Of a stretch of DNA of 36,378 bases, positions 7,827-27,767 are shown piece after piece. Each line of letters starts with the position of its first letter. Position 1 is the stretch's first letter. A program made the position numbers and the translations under genes. Origin of the DNA: Chitinophaga pinensis (GTDB lineage: Bacteria; Bacteroidota; Bacteroidia; CAMBQF01). Under the pieces are notes generated by a model. That model had not been told where the DNA came from. It worked only from the letters and a program-made list of their open reading frames with translations, and did not search any database. The stretch lies in contig CAMBQF010000013.1 in NCBI GenBank assembly GCA_945869825.1, positions 1-36,378 of the forward strand, read 5' to 3'.

Positions 7827-8228
7827 ATGCTTAAAATAGAACACATAGGCATTGCCGTAAAAAATATAGAAGAAAGCAACAACCTTTTTGCTAAATTATT
7901 TGCCCGCCAAGCCTACAAAACAGAGGCGGTGGAGAGCGAAGGGGTATCTACCTCTTTCTTCCGGATGGGCGACAGTAAAATAGAGCTGTTGGAAGCCACC
8001 AACCCCGATAGCGCAATTGCTAAGTTTATTGAAAAACGCGGCGAGGGTATACACCACATAGCATTTGAGGTAGAAGATATTCATGCTGAAATGAAACGCC
8101 TGGAAGCCGAGGGTTTTCAATTGATAAACAAAGAACCCAAACCCGGCGCTGATAATAAGTTGGTTTGTTTTTTACACCCTAAAGGCACTAATGGGGTGCT
8201 AATTGAATTGTGTCAAGAGATAAAATAA
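7827..8228 (+). CDS. mce: Methylmalonyl-CoA epimerase (VOC family)
   Basis: MLKIEHIGIAVKNIEESNNLFAKLF...GEGIHHIAFEVEDIHAEMKRLEAEGFQLI...FLHPKGTNGVLIELCQ is characteristic. Confidence 0.92.
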   Translation: MLKIEHIGIAVKNIEESNNLFAKLFARQAYKTEAVESEGVSTSFFRMGDSKIELLEATNPDSAIAKFIEKRGEGIHHIAFEVEDIHAEMKRLEAEGFQLINKEPKPGADNKLVCFLHPKGTNGVLIELCQEIK

Positions 8229-8271
8229 GGTGCTAGGGACTAGGTGTTAGGCGCCAGGTGCAAGAAAAAAT

Positions 8272-11906: not shown

Positions 11907-13088
11907 ATGGCGCGTACCGACCTTTACCAAGCACCTGATTACTACGCAATTGACGACCTGCTAACCGACGAACAAAAACTGATACGAGACACCGTACGCA
12001 ATTGGGTTAAAAAAGAACTTTCTCCTATTATTGACGATTACGCTCAGCGTGCAGAATTTCCCAAACATATTATTAAAGGCCTTGGCGAAATTGGCGCCTT
12101 TGGCCCATACATTCCGCAAGAGTACGGTGGTGCTGGCCTAGACCAAATAAGCTATGGTATAATAATGCAAGAACTTGAGCGATGCGATTCGGGTATCCGC
12201 TCTACGGCATCGGTACAAAGTTCGTTGGTTATGTACCCTATTTACTCTTTTGGTACCGAAGAGCAAAAACGAAAATACCTGCCTAAACTGGCTACAGGTG
12301 AGTTTATGGGTTGCTTTGGCTTAACAGAACCTGACCATGGTTCTGACCCATCGAGCATGATTACCAATTTTAAAGATGCTGGCGACCATGTTATTTTAAA
12401 TGGCGCTAAAATGTGGATATCGAATGCGCCATTTGCTGATATTGCCGTTGTTTGGGCTAAAGACGAGGCAGGCGACATTCGCGGCCTGGTGGTAGAGCGT
12501 GGTATGGAAGGTTTTACAACGCCCGAAACGCATGGAAAATGGTCGTTGCGTGCATCGGCTACCGGCGAGTTGGTGTTTGATAATGTTAAAGTTCCTAAAG
12601 AAAATATCTTCCCTACCATAAAAGGCCTTAAAGGCCCGCTTAGCTGCTTAAACAGCGCCCGCTATGGCATTGCCTGGGGAGCCTTGGGTACCGCTATGGA
12701 TTGCTATGATACCGCCCTGCGTTATGCCAAAGAGCGTATACAGTTTGGCAAACCCATTGCAGCTTTTCAGCTGCAACAGAAAAAACTGGCTGAATTTATT
12801 ACTGAAATTACCAAAGGCCAGCTGTTGGTATGGCGTTTAGGTGTTTTGCGTAATGAGGGTAAAGCTACCCCTGCACAAATATCTATGGCTAAGCGTAACA
12901 ACGTGTATGAATCTATTAAAATATGCCGCGAAAGCCGCCAGATTTTGGGTGGTATGGGCATTACCGACGAATATTCTGTTATGCGCCACATGGCTAATTT
13001 GGAGTCGGTAATTACTTACGAGGGCACACATGATATACACCTGCTTATTACTGGTATGGATATTACCGGTATTAACGCTTTTAAATAG
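11907..13088 (+). CDS. Acyl-CoA dehydrogenase (glutaryl-CoA dehydrogenase-like)
   Basis: MGCFGLTEPDHGSDPSSMITNFKDAGDHVILNGAKMWISNAP; YAKERIQFGKPIAAFQLQQKKLAEF; NLESVITYEGTHDIHLLITG. Confidence 0.92.
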   Translation: MARTDLYQAPDYYAIDDLLTDEQKLIRDTVRNWVKKELSPIIDDYAQRAEFPKHIIKGLGEIGAFGPYIPQEYGGAGLDQISYGIIMQELERCDSGIRSTASVQSSLVMYPIYSFGTEEQKRKYLPKLATGEFMGCFGLTEPDHGSDPSSMITNFKDAGDHVILNGAKMWISNAPFADIAVVWAKDEAGDIRGLVVERGMEGFTTPETHGKWSLRASATGELVFDNVKVPKENIFPTIKGLKGPLSCLNSARYGIAWGALGTAMDCYDTALRYAKERIQFGKPIAAFQLQQKKLAEFITEITKGQLLVWRLGVLRNEGKATPAQISMAKRNNVYESIKICRESRQILGGMGITDEYSVMRHMANLESVITYEGTHDIHLLITGMDITGINAFK

Positions 13089-14263: not shown

Positions 14264-14602
14264 GTGAAGTACGCTTTAGCCGCTATTTTTCTGCTGCTGC
14301 TTACAGCGTGCGATGCATACATACACGTTACAGGCAAAGCGGTTGATGCTAAAACAGGCTTACCGCTTGACACATTCAGGGTATATGAAGTAAGCAGAGC
14401 ACACCCTGATACTATAGGTTTATTCGGTTATTTGTATTTACCAAGCGATAGTGGAAAATACGAAGCATCTAAAATAACAGGCGGACTTAAACCTGACTGG
14501 TTGAAACTGGTGTTTGTTGCCAAAGGCTATGAGGTTATCCACACACTCGACCTTAAAAGAGGTGAGTTAACCATTAAACTGAAAAAGGCAAAAACGAAAT
14601 AA
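14264..14602 (+). CDS. Small predicted lipoprotein with carboxypeptidase-regulatory-like fold
   Basis: GTG start; MKYALAAIFLLLLTAC lipobox; HVTGKAVDAKTGLPLDTFRVYEV. Confidence 0.6.
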   Translation: MKYALAAIFLLLLTACDAYIHVTGKAVDAKTGLPLDTFRVYEVSRAHPDTIGLFGYLYLPSDSGKYEASKITGGLKPDWLKLVFVAKGYEVIHTLDLKRGELTIKLKKAKTK

Positions 14603-14728
14603 CCTCTCCTTAAAGCTTCCCCAAAAGATAGCGTAGTAAAAATTGCTCTTATAAAACGTTTTGCGGCTAACCGAAGGTAGCGATTTTCAACATTAAACTT
14701 TCATACGAAGCACTAAACCGCCACTTTT

Positions 14729-14754
14729 GGGTAGGTGCTGTTATGTGCTGCCCT
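14729..14754. repeat. Left flank of AT-rich gene segment: TIR GTTATGTGCTGCCCT (14740-14754) with hairpin GGGTAG...CTGCCC
   Basis: Inverted copy at 16054-16068 (12/15 identical). Confidence 0.55.
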
Positions 14755-14768
14755 TGAATCCATTCCTG

Positions 14769-15974
14769 TTATTGCTTTATTAGTTCTATTGTTTGTTGTC
14801 CGTCTTGATTAAATACTCTTAGAAAATAAATACCGCTTTCTAAGTCTGAAAAGTCTTGTTGGTCTACGTTTTTGCCCGTCCAAATTACCTGTCCTGAAGA
14901 ATTGGTTAAAACAAAGTCTTCGATTCCAGCTTTATTCTTAAGTTGAATTTTGCTTGTAAATGGATTCGGAAAAATACTAATTTTATTTATGTTACCTATA
15001 GATTCAGAAATAGATGTTGCTATGTTAGTGGTTAACAAATACATCCAAACGTCTATAAAATTAGGATTGTTCAGATTATCTAACGGAGTCCACATATCAA
15101 TTACTGTCGAATTATGATAAGGAGTTATTAACATAGATTGGGGTGTTGCGTTAGTATAAAGTAGATGTGAATTATTGTAAGGAATATTCAAGTTGTCAAC
15201 TAATGTACTATCATCACCTCCAGTCCATAGCCCCAGTGCTTGAGTAACCTGTATTTGTGATGAATATGGAACGCCATCATCTTGTAAATGTAAAAAACTA
15301 AAAATTCTATTTTTCGCGGTAGAAAAACTACCATAAATCCAGCTTGGAGGAGCGTTGTAAAAATTGCTAAAGTCGTTAGCTCCCGAAAACATTACACATC
15401 TGTCTATGTTGTTAATACTCGCAAAATACAGTGCATGTCCGGCACCCTGAGAATGACCAGATGTAACTACTTTGCTCCAGTCAAGAGAATTCCCAACAAT
15501 AAATTGTCCCCAATTTTGAGTTGGGTAAGTAGTATTTAGGTATTGCAAAAGTTTAATGGCTCTTATATGAAGGCTATTTAAAGTGTCTATTGAAATTGCC
15601 GAACTGACTGGTGTTCCATAACAAGCTTCTTGTCTAAAATTAGTGTAACAATTAATGTCAGAACTTGAACCACATGCGGTCTGAATAGAAATTGTATTGG
15701 GATAAGCTACGGATATTACATGATAGCCAAGATTAGCAGCCAACTTTAAAAACAAAGTTGTCCTTTTTGGACTTGAATTTGTGCCTCCGATGTAGAACAA
15801 AAGTTTATTGAAAGAAGTTACCGATGTGTTTATCGCAACATAATTGCTGTCGCCAGAGGCAGGATAGGCATTGTCGGTTTGCCATGGTTGAACATAAAAA
15901 GTTGAAAGTTGCCCAATGGATGAGCTAATTTTGAATATGGCTACTAATAATATGGCGATTGATTTTGTTTTCAT
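14769..15974 (-). CDS. Secreted alpha/beta-hydrolase-like protein (BPSS1187-like) with T9SS type A sorting domain
   Basis: Signal peptide MKTKSIAILLVAIFKISSSIGQ; GHSQGAGHALYFASI nucleophile elbow; C-terminal ISIFPNPFTSKIQLKNK...GIYFLRVFNQDGQQTIELIKQ. ATG at 15974 better than track start 16040. Confidence 0.75.
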   Translation of the reverse strand: MKTKSIAILLVAIFKISSSIGQLSTFYVQPWQTDNAYPASGDSNYVAINTSVTSFNKLLFYIGGTNSSPKRTTLFLKLAANLGYHVISVAYPNTISIQTACGSSSDINCYTNFRQEACYGTPVSSAISIDTLNSLHIRAIKLLQYLNTTYPTQNWGQFIVGNSLDWSKVVTSGHSQGAGHALYFASINNIDRCVMFSGANDFSNFYNAPPSWIYGSFSTAKNRIFSFLHLQDDGVPYSSQIQVTQALGLWTGGDDSTLVDNLNIPYNNSHLLYTNATPQSMLITPYHNSTVIDMWTPLDNLNNPNFIDVWMYLLTTNIATSISESIGNINKISIFPNPFTSKIQLKNKAGIEDFVLTNSSGQVIWTGKNVDQQDFSDLESGIYFLRVFNQDGQQTIELIKQ

Positions 15975-16049
15975 GTTTTTCAACTGTGAATATGATTTCA
16001 CTTTAGACTTTAAAAACTTCAAAAGGTTTAATCTATTCATTGCTCTGTT

Positions 16050-16088
16050 TTTTAGGGTTGCGCATAACTACACGCTAATCCCTAAAAC
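16050..16088. repeat. Right flank of AT-rich gene segment: TIR (16054-16068) inside hairpin TTTTAGGG...CCCTAAAA overlapping the recJ stop codon
   Basis: 8-bp outer stem 16050-16057/16081-16088, with GCG/CGC pairing inside. Confidence 0.55.
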
Positions 16089-17788
16089 GCGATATCCTTA
16101 ATATTCAACTGTAGGGTTACTTTGCCGTTCCACTCGTTAGGCTCTATGCTGTAGCAAATATCAAAAGGTATTTTCTTAGCAACGTTTTCTGCATAATGCC
16201 CCTGCCCGAACGCTATTGCGTTGAAGAATAAATTGGGGTTGTCCTGCTGCACATCCATCTTAAGGTGGGTTGAGCCTACAATCCTTCCATAGCCCCTATC
16301 CCTAACCCCACGCGTTAAAAACACGGGGTTCATATTACCGGGCCCAAAGGGGGCAAATTGTTTCAAGACATCGTAAAACTTAGGGGTAATTTCATCCAGA
16401 TCTATTTCGGCGTCTATCTCCACTTCCGGCGTCAGCGATTCTTCTGTTATAGTAGCTGCTACTACCTCTTCAAAACGCTGGATAAAGGCATCTACATTGC
16501 TTTCTTCCATAGTAAGGCCGGCCGCAAATTTATGCCCTCCAAACTGGATTAATAAATCGCTGCAAGAGAGTATGGCCTCGTACACATCAAAACCTTTAAC
16601 AGAACGTGCAGAGCCTGCCACATGCTCTCCACTTTTGGTTAGCACAATAGTAGGGCGGTAATAGCTTTCTATCAACCGCGATGCTACAATACCTATAACC
16701 CCTTTATGCCAGTCGGGACTATAAAGCACAGTACTGCGGCGGTTGGTATATGCATCGTTACTTACGATCATATCCAACGCACTTTGGGTAATGCTGCGGT
16801 CTAAATCGCGGCGGGTAGTGTTGTTATCGTTAATATCGGCGCTCGGTAATACAGTACTATCGGCATGGTCAGATATTAATAAATCTACCGCGCGGCTGCC
16901 ACTTTCTATGCGTCCTGCGGCATTAATACGCGGGCCAATAATGAACACCACATCAGATATCGTGAGTTCTCTGCTTATCTTATTGAATTCTATTATAGCT
17001 TTTAAACCCGGCAGTGGGTTGGTGTTTAACTTGTTTAAGCCCATGCAGGCAAGGGTGCGGTTTTCGCCAACAATAGGCACAATATCGGCGGCAATACTAA
17101 CCGCAACTAAATCAATGTACTTAAAGAGATTTTCTATATCAACACCGGCTTTTATGCAATAACCCTGCATCAGCTTAAAGCCAATGCCGCAGCCCGAAAG
17201 CTCGTCAAAAGGGTAGGCACAATCGACACGTTTAGGATCTAAAACTGCAACAGCTTTGGGTATTTCATCGCCGGGTAAGTGGTGGTCGCAAATAATAAAA
17301 TCGATGTTCCTTTGTGTTGCGTATTCAACTTTATCAATAGATTTTATGCCACAGTCTAATGCTATAATCAGGCTATAGCCGTTGGCATTAGCATAGTCTA
17401 TACCATCGAATGATATACCGTAGCCTTCTTTATAACGATCAGGTATGTAATAGGCTAAGTTTGAGTAATAGTTTTTAAGAAAAGAATAAACCAGTGCTAC
17501 CGATGTAGTTCCATCTACATCATAATCGCCATAAATTAAAATCTTCTCCCCTGTTTCAATAGCGTCTAACAAGCGATTTACCGCCTTGTCCATATCGGCC
17601 ATTAAAAAAGGGTCGTGCAGGTGGCTTGCATCAGGCCTGAAGAATTTCTTCGCCTCGTCAAATGTGTTAATGCCACGCAATACCAGCAAGCGCGCCAGTG
17701 TTTTGTTAATGTTCAATTCCTTGCTGAGCCTTTCTATAGCCTCTATATCATCTACCTCTTGTATTACCCAGCGCTTATTTATACCCAT
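16082..17788 (-). CDS. recJ: Single-stranded-DNA-specific exonuclease RecJ
   Basis: ILIYGDYDVDGTTSVALVYSFL, FIICDHHLPG, GPRINAAGRIESGSRAVDLL, GHKFAAGLTM. Confidence 0.95.
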   Translation of the reverse strand: MGINKRWVIQEVDDIEAIERLSKELNINKTLARLLVLRGINTFDEAKKFFRPDASHLHDPFLMADMDKAVNRLLDAIETGEKILIYGDYDVDGTTSVALVYSFLKNYYSNLAYYIPDRYKEGYGISFDGIDYANANGYSLIIALDCGIKSIDKVEYATQRNIDFIICDHHLPGDEIPKAVAVLDPKRVDCAYPFDELSGCGIGFKLMQGYCIKAGVDIENLFKYIDLVAVSIAADIVPIVGENRTLACMGLNKLNTNPLPGLKAIIEFNKISRELTISDVVFIIGPRINAAGRIESGSRAVDLLISDHADSTVLPSADINDNNTTRRDLDRSITQSALDMIVSNDAYTNRRSTVLYSPDWHKGVIGIVASRLIESYYRPTIVLTKSGEHVAGSARSVKGFDVYEAILSCSDLLIQFGGHKFAAGLTMEESNVDAFIQRFEEVVAATITEESLTPEVEIDAEIDLDEITPKFYDVLKQFAPFGPGNMNPVFLTRGVRDRGYGRIVGSTHLKMDVQQDNPNLFFNAIAFGQGHYAENVAKKIPFDICYSIEPNEWNGKVTLQLNIKDIAF

Positions 17789-27299: not shown

Positions 27300-27317
27300 T
27301 AGTTGTATACAAAACTA
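27300..27317. promoter_or_regulatory. Second operator-like palindrome TAGTTGTATACAAAACTA
   Basis: 15/18 identical to 26764-26781; between marR and the next ORF. Confidence 0.65.
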
Positions 27318-27356
27318 ATTTACACAAAAATAATTAACAACCTAAAAACATATAAA

Positions 27357-27767
27357 ATGAAAGCAAAACTATCTTTTAAACAATCAATTATTGCAGGCTT
27401 ATTAGCTGCCGGTGTAGCGGCCGTTGTAAACGCTATACTGTTTTTCATCTTTCACGCCGCAGGAGTAATTACTGATGATATTATGATACAACCCAATACC
27501 CCTATGACAGTTGTCCCCATAATTATATCAAGCATAATGCCTACCCTTATTGCCACTGTTGTATTCTTTTTAATAGAAAAATACACCAACAACGGGTTTA
27601 AAATTTTTACCATTATTTCTATTATACTAATGGTGCTTACGTTTGCCAACCCTTTTGTGGGTATACCAGGTATTGGCGTGGCTTACGGCATTGTACTTAA
27701 TGTTATGCACGTAGTAGTAGTTGCAGCATTATTATTCTTTATAAACAGGGCCAAAAATAACGCCTAA
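27357..27767 (+). CDS. Small four-TM membrane protein (DUF6069-like)
   Basis: MKAKLSFKQSIIAGLLAAGVAAVVNAILFFIF with four hydrophobic segments. Confidence 0.65.
   Translation: MKAKLSFKQSIIAGLLAAGVAAVVNAILFFIFHAAGVITDDIMIQPNTPMTVVPIIISSIMPTLIATVVFFLIEKYTNNGFKIFTIISIILMVLTFANPFVGIPGIGVAYGIVLNVMHVVVVAALLFFINRAKNNA

Follow-up and report, generated by a model that had tools for sequence, protein, structure and literature searches.

A single AT-rich gene beside recJ

The window analysed here is a stretch of 36,378 nucleotides of Chitinophaga pinensis DNA, in which one AT-rich gene and an attC-like recombination site lie between a small lipoprotein-like gene and recJ. The features of this segment were annotated as follows:

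14264..14602 (plus strand): left flank, small lipoprotein-like gene, read from the sequences; a similar gene occupies the same place in the genus mate G001 (L253:4400-4750)
14650..14748 (minus strand): attC-like recombination site, 99 nt (covariance model R1, 70.1 bits, E 1.2e-12 genome-wide)
14657..16067 (minus strand), 1411 bp: putative mobile cassette of one gene and its attC-like site (site-model match, end arms, empty site in G001)
16068/16067 and 14657/14656: cassette joins, insertion at G^TT (cleavage point placed by the integron G^TT rule)
14740..14754: 3' outer arm (R'' box and extension), the left repeat of the sequence-only reading (read directly; pairs with 16054-16068)
14769..15974 (minus strand): cassette gene, predicted secreted alpha/beta hydrolase with a T9SS sorting domain (Pfam PF18962, 3.1e-8; GHSQGA motif)
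16054..16068: 5' outer arm, GTTATGCGCAACCCT on the gene strand, with the invariant A at position 11 (sequence and comparison with array cassettes)
16082..17788 (minus strand): right flank, recJ (Pfam DHH, DHHA1, RecJ_OB; 92% identical in G001)

The sequence-only reading had marked 14660-16088 as an AT-rich segment with imperfect terminal inverted repeats. The segment stands, and its limits are refined to 14657-16067. Both 15-mers, GTTATGTGCTGCCCT at 14740-14754 (plus strand) and AGGGTTGCGCATAAC at 16054-16068, were confirmed in position and agree at 12 of 15 bases, and no integrase or transposase is encoded between them, as had been stated. The repeats are real, but they are not the ends of a transposon: the left one belongs to a folded site of 99 nt, and the two together represent the paired outer arms of the attC-like site that the cassette itself carries. 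The claimed compositional bias was also borne out. GC content of the cassette gene is 0.348 versus 0.441 ± 0.032 in the other window genes (z -2.9), with an atypical codon usage (GC3 0.271, z -3.65), while the whole cassette has a GC content of 0.352 compared with 0.433 and 0.436 in its flanks. One further gene of the window (27303-27767) is equally AT-rich (GC 0.342) and has no site nearby.

The longest ORF of the cassette gene starts at 16040, and its protein is 402-423 aa long. The T9SS sorting domain is the sole Pfam match of this protein, and the alpha/beta hydrolase fold is predicted from the GHSQGA motif. The hydrolase has a patchy distribution, with homologs in nine other genomes among the 386 sampled. 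These relatives were expected to occur as cassettes as well, an expectation that was rejected since none of the ten homolog loci has an attC-like site within its 1.5-kb flanks. The viral contigs searched with the cassette gene gave no match.

In G001, the gene order is the same as in the window (acyl-CoA dehydrogenase-like, DUF6268, lipoprotein-like, recJ), but the distance from the lipoprotein stop to the recJ stop is 25 bp rather than 1480 bp. Homology to G001 detected by blastn on the recJ side reaches 16068, the first base of the right repeat and the edge of the cassette. Both genus mates lack an attC-like site and the hydrolase part of the gene, showing matches to the sorting domain only; G001 is the informative one, as recJ of the other mate is cut by a contig edge. 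The empty site expected of a mobile insertion is thus present in one close relative, at the very recJ-lipoprotein junction where the sequence-only reading had suggested looking for it. Relatives do not all carry the gene at this locus, and the flanking motifs recur next to many unrelated genes.

Integron recombination proceeds by cleavage at G^TT. By this rule, the G of the target would be 16068 on the gene strand, the cassette would run from 16067 to 14657, and the target would resume with TTTTAT from 14656. By the same rule, the bases following the G at the far end belong to the target, which would account for the imperfect look of that R box.

attC-like sites and their cassettes in Bacteroidota

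The covariance model R1 was built from twelve aligned sites, none of them from the window, and its E-values are rough owing to a short calibration. In the search of the whole genome it scored 14650-14748 on the minus strand at 70.1 bits (E 1.2e-12); in the window alone with filters off, the site received an E-value of 1.4e-14 and the next match 0.29. Compared with the usual site of ~135 nt, the window site has a terminal loop shortened by ~37 model positions, and several pairs of its stem are broken. Compensatory changes, in which both sides are altered and pairing is kept, occur in 16 of the 27 pairs of the site alignment, a level reached by none of 500 shuffles, and covariation is 0.453 for the site pairs versus at most 0.075 with slid partners. 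Like attC, the site folds into an imperfect palindrome, contains R and L boxes and is conserved in structure rather than in sequence. The integron R box has the consensus GTTRRRY / RYYYAAC. The GTT and AAC of the R boxes are invariant in these sites, whereas the bases next to them often depart from RRRY (GTTATGC, GTTAGCG, GTTGGCA).

When 396 Bacteroidota genomes were searched with the pattern CCRCCACTTTTGGN{0,14}GTTATG, it was found in this genome and in three genomes of other families, the 28-bp core being identical in two of these and changed at a single position in the third. The core copies are surrounded by an imperfect palindrome of ~130 bp and adjoin AT-rich genes, with a whole array of sites in two genomes. 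A 22-mer of the core occurs in at least 119 contigs, mostly of Bacteroidota (Chitinophagales, Cytophagales, Flavobacteriales, Bacteroidales and Sphingobacteriales), with a few from outside the phylum. The statement of the sequence-only reading that GTTATG...CCGCCACTTTTGG sequences flank AT-rich genes in other Bacteroidota was therefore correct. Exact copies of the 22-mer were also seen in contigs labelled Deltaproteobacteria, Ignavibacteria and Limnohabitans (L207, L186 and L200); the Limnohabitans-labelled one is a small MAG contig that may be misbinned.

Altogether, attC-like sites were predicted at E<=1e-3 in 174 of the 396 sampled Bacteroidota genomes, often as arrays of single unrelated genes. 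The resulting 44% counts the genomes in which one or more sites were predicted, with only eight candidates scored per genome and in a sample drawn evenly and not complete. Sites are also present on plasmids, and none was found in phage records. The cargo is very mixed, with 124 Pfam families in 108 proteins and few of them occurring twice; defence genes among the array cassettes of alignment A5 include restriction-modification, AbiU, AbiP2/DRT and a 4TM effector. A mobilizable plasmid of Flagellimonas marinaquae (L261, NZ_CP092416.1) carries Tn3, ermF, an integrase of the family described below and two sites, which enclose a gene of the dihydrofolate reductase family.

The ends of 126 array cassettes were compared by matching the first 15 bases with the reverse complement of the last 15. 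At least eight of the first nine positions match in 102 cassettes, and all of these 102 have, at position 11 of the 5' end, an A that its partner does not match. Outer arms consist of 9-10 bp, the mismatched A at position 11 and ~4 more bp. The window cassette shows the same A/G mismatch at position 11 (GTTATGCGCAACCCT versus GTTATGTGCTGCCCT). Agreement at positions 4-9 is 0.84-0.90 between the two ends of one cassette and 0.29-0.60 between ends of different cassettes of the same locus; over positions 4-20, own ends have 9.65 matches compared with a permuted mean of 6.31 and maximum of 7.21. Such agreement is expected if both ends of a circular cassette must pair. Own ends pair over 10-12 bp in a control array of eight Vibrio cassettes as well, so the idea that extended end complementarity is unique to Bacteroidota sites was dropped: the pairing principle is common to both, and the differences lie in the fixed mismatched A and the additional pairs. 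The longest ORF lies on the strand of the site in 113 of 118 array cassettes.

In the 2.98-Mb genome, the degenerate 15-mer pattern with one mismatch allowed gave seven matches versus one for the reversed control, the other matches lying mostly inside coding sequence and being mostly due to chance. The bare pair of 15-mers is weak on its own, and it is the whole element that rises above chance. A blastn search of the left flank against its own genome returned the self match only, since site copies are too diverged for this method. Three more sites were predicted on contig C64 (L111:6158-6294, 8136-8270 and 12513-12587) in two AT-rich stretches, the second site being strong and the other two weak; the gene preceding the strong site also has a T9SS-like tail. 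No recombinase of the array-integrase family was detected in this genome at E<=1e-40, so the enzyme would be encoded elsewhere or has since been lost. The cassette copy of the window is probably old and little active.

Tyrosine recombinases beside the arrays

A tyrosine recombinase is encoded 0.3-6 kb from the arrays. Of the 20 regions centred on integrases of the strongest group, 16 carry every site downstream of the integrase and on its strand, one is divergent and three are without sites. An array with one site orientation accompanies 17 of the 20 strongest integrases in related genomes, whereas the window holds a single cassette. The divergent order, which is the canonical one, was found in seven regions over both groups; these loci (L317, L319, L325, L327, L332, L336 and L337) fall in one part of the tree, with co-oriented arrays elsewhere. 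Since IntI-family matches occur in every genome and are mostly Xer background, the array-integrase family was instead delimited with an alignment of its own and with E-value bands. Sites were predicted in 43 of 44 genomes with an integrase at E<1e-110, in 53 of 70 at E 1e-110 to 1e-70 and in 78 of 282 without the family (Fisher 4e-20 for the first group).

The array recombinases are scored best by NCBIfam NF040815 or the IntI model, in each case below the cut-off, and no match in the six genomes searched reaches the cut-off of the IntI family. In the tree, which has few IntI references and some long branches, they are placed beside IntI and separated from XerA, XerC and XerD with 99/94 support. 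The gap between K[DN]R in patch III and HxLRH comprises 58-61 residues in 37 of the 38 clean readings and 71 in one, versus 100-101 in IntI1 and a Vibrio IntI. The IntI-specific domain of ~42 residues, itself an integron criterion, is missing from every array recombinase that was cleanly measured, and the SPLD/SPFD motif is retained in most. At most clade-A loci, the integrase stop is followed by the conserved sequence TATAWANNA|GTT and then by the first cassette; this attI-like junction is the candidate attI.

Relatives of the integrase lie directly beside IS91 transposases on Myroides and Bradyrhizobium plasmids (L262, L263), and the wider family thus does not consist solely of array enzymes. 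Some arrays (L118, L116, L052, L127) are headed by truncated or frame-broken integrases; such intI genes are common.

Integron-like gene capture and its relation to known systems

We consider it very likely that the segment represents a single gene cassette that an integron-like system inserted, by site-specific recombination at G^TT, between the lipoprotein-like gene and recJ. The cassette may move as a circle. One strand of its site would fold, with outer arms of ~15 bp, a 5-nt spacer, the L box and a variable loop, and this single strand could serve as the substrate. The candidate enzyme is the Bacteroidota tyrosine recombinase that is sister to IntI and lacks the IntI-specific domain, which would join the folded strand to G^TT. 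The usual target would be attI beside the integrase, and the present location a secondary site. The R1 match, the arrays beside a dedicated recombinase and the empty site in G001 all support what the sequence-only reading had proposed, a mobile cassette beside recJ recalling integron attC elements.

That an ordinary IntI moved a canonical integron cassette on the known attC class is very improbable. The plan is common to both, including a folded site, a G^TT-like core, an attI-like junction and arrays; canonical Vibrio cassettes likewise have own-end complementarity of ~10-12 bp, and the array recombinases branch beside IntI. However, the short K[DN]R-HxLRH gap and the failure of any match to reach the IntI cut-off in the six genomes speak against a canonical integrase, while R1 detects none of the Vibrio sites and many outer cores break GTTRRRY. 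We give an even smaller probability to a MITE or another non-autonomous TIR transposon mobilized by a transposase in trans. It would fit the imperfect terminal repeats, the AT-rich cargo and the lack of an enzyme inside, but the joins show no target duplication. The ends on which a transposase acts have to be shared between copies, whereas the repeats here are cassette-specific, with own ends agreeing far above those of different cassettes, and one end has a covarying site of ~130 nt that recurs in head-to-tail arrays beside a recombinase.

The smallest chance is given to an AT-rich gene that was acquired by homologous or illegitimate recombination and has ends that only look like those of a cassette. 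A pair of such 15-mers alone is not rare and the window has another AT-rich gene without a site, yet the match to an independent model, the position-11 mismatch shared with all end-matching array cassettes, the gene orientation, which is that of the arrays, and the break of G001 homology at the cassette edge speak against this reading.

Integrons are the best-known natural gene-capture platform. An integron-like gene-swapping system appears to be widespread in Bacteroidota, where integrons were thought nearly absent. Published accounts first knew In0 only and later one complete integron in Salinibacter (PMC9024848; open-access surveys), and an attC survey makes no mention of Bacteroidota (PMC8352920); this near-absence stands against predicted sites in 44% of the sampled genomes. 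Survey integrases were selected by the additional domain (PMC2426708), and the insertion has been described as not fully conserved, yet essential for integrons to function (PMC8138268). It seems likely that Bacteroidota have an integron class of their own, with IntI-sister recombinases without the supposedly essential domain, sites with extended outer arms and an invariant mismatched A, and near-identical sites over many orders, which would have been missed because integrases were selected by that domain. The literature covered was open-access, and an earlier description may exist in subscription papers or preprints. A domain-less lineage beside cassette arrays makes the role of the IntI-specific domain directly testable. 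Given the defence cargo and the Flagellimonas plasmid with sites and an integrase near ermF, the system could be relevant to gene exchange among environmental and clinical Bacteroidota.

The closest known counterparts are the chromosomal (sedentary) integrons of Vibrio with IntIA and VCR-type attC. They share tandem single-gene cassettes with a folded imperfect-palindrome site after each gene, the G^TT core, an integrase gene at one end, an attI-like junction, unrelated cargo including defence genes and own-end complementarity. They differ in that the Bacteroidota recombinase lacks the IntI-specific domain, R1 finds no sites in the Vibrio array, the Bacteroidota outer arms continue beyond the first 9-10 bp with the mismatched A and ~4 bp, and the main-clade Bacteroidota integrase reads towards its array whereas the canonical one reads away. 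Like CALIN and solitary cassettes at secondary sites (PMC9024848, PMC8618304), the recJ cassette is without an integrase and inserted outside an array, but its site is of the Bacteroidota type rather than a canonical attC. NF040815, the XerA-like 'site-specific tyrosine recombinase/integron integrase' family, resembles the array recombinases in profile score, which remain below its cut-off and split from XerA, XerC and XerD in the tree. The account of the 'integron-like' subgroup of simple tyrosine recombinases (PMC8138268) holds that integron function requires the insertion, whereas the Bacteroidota members beside arrays are insertion-less.
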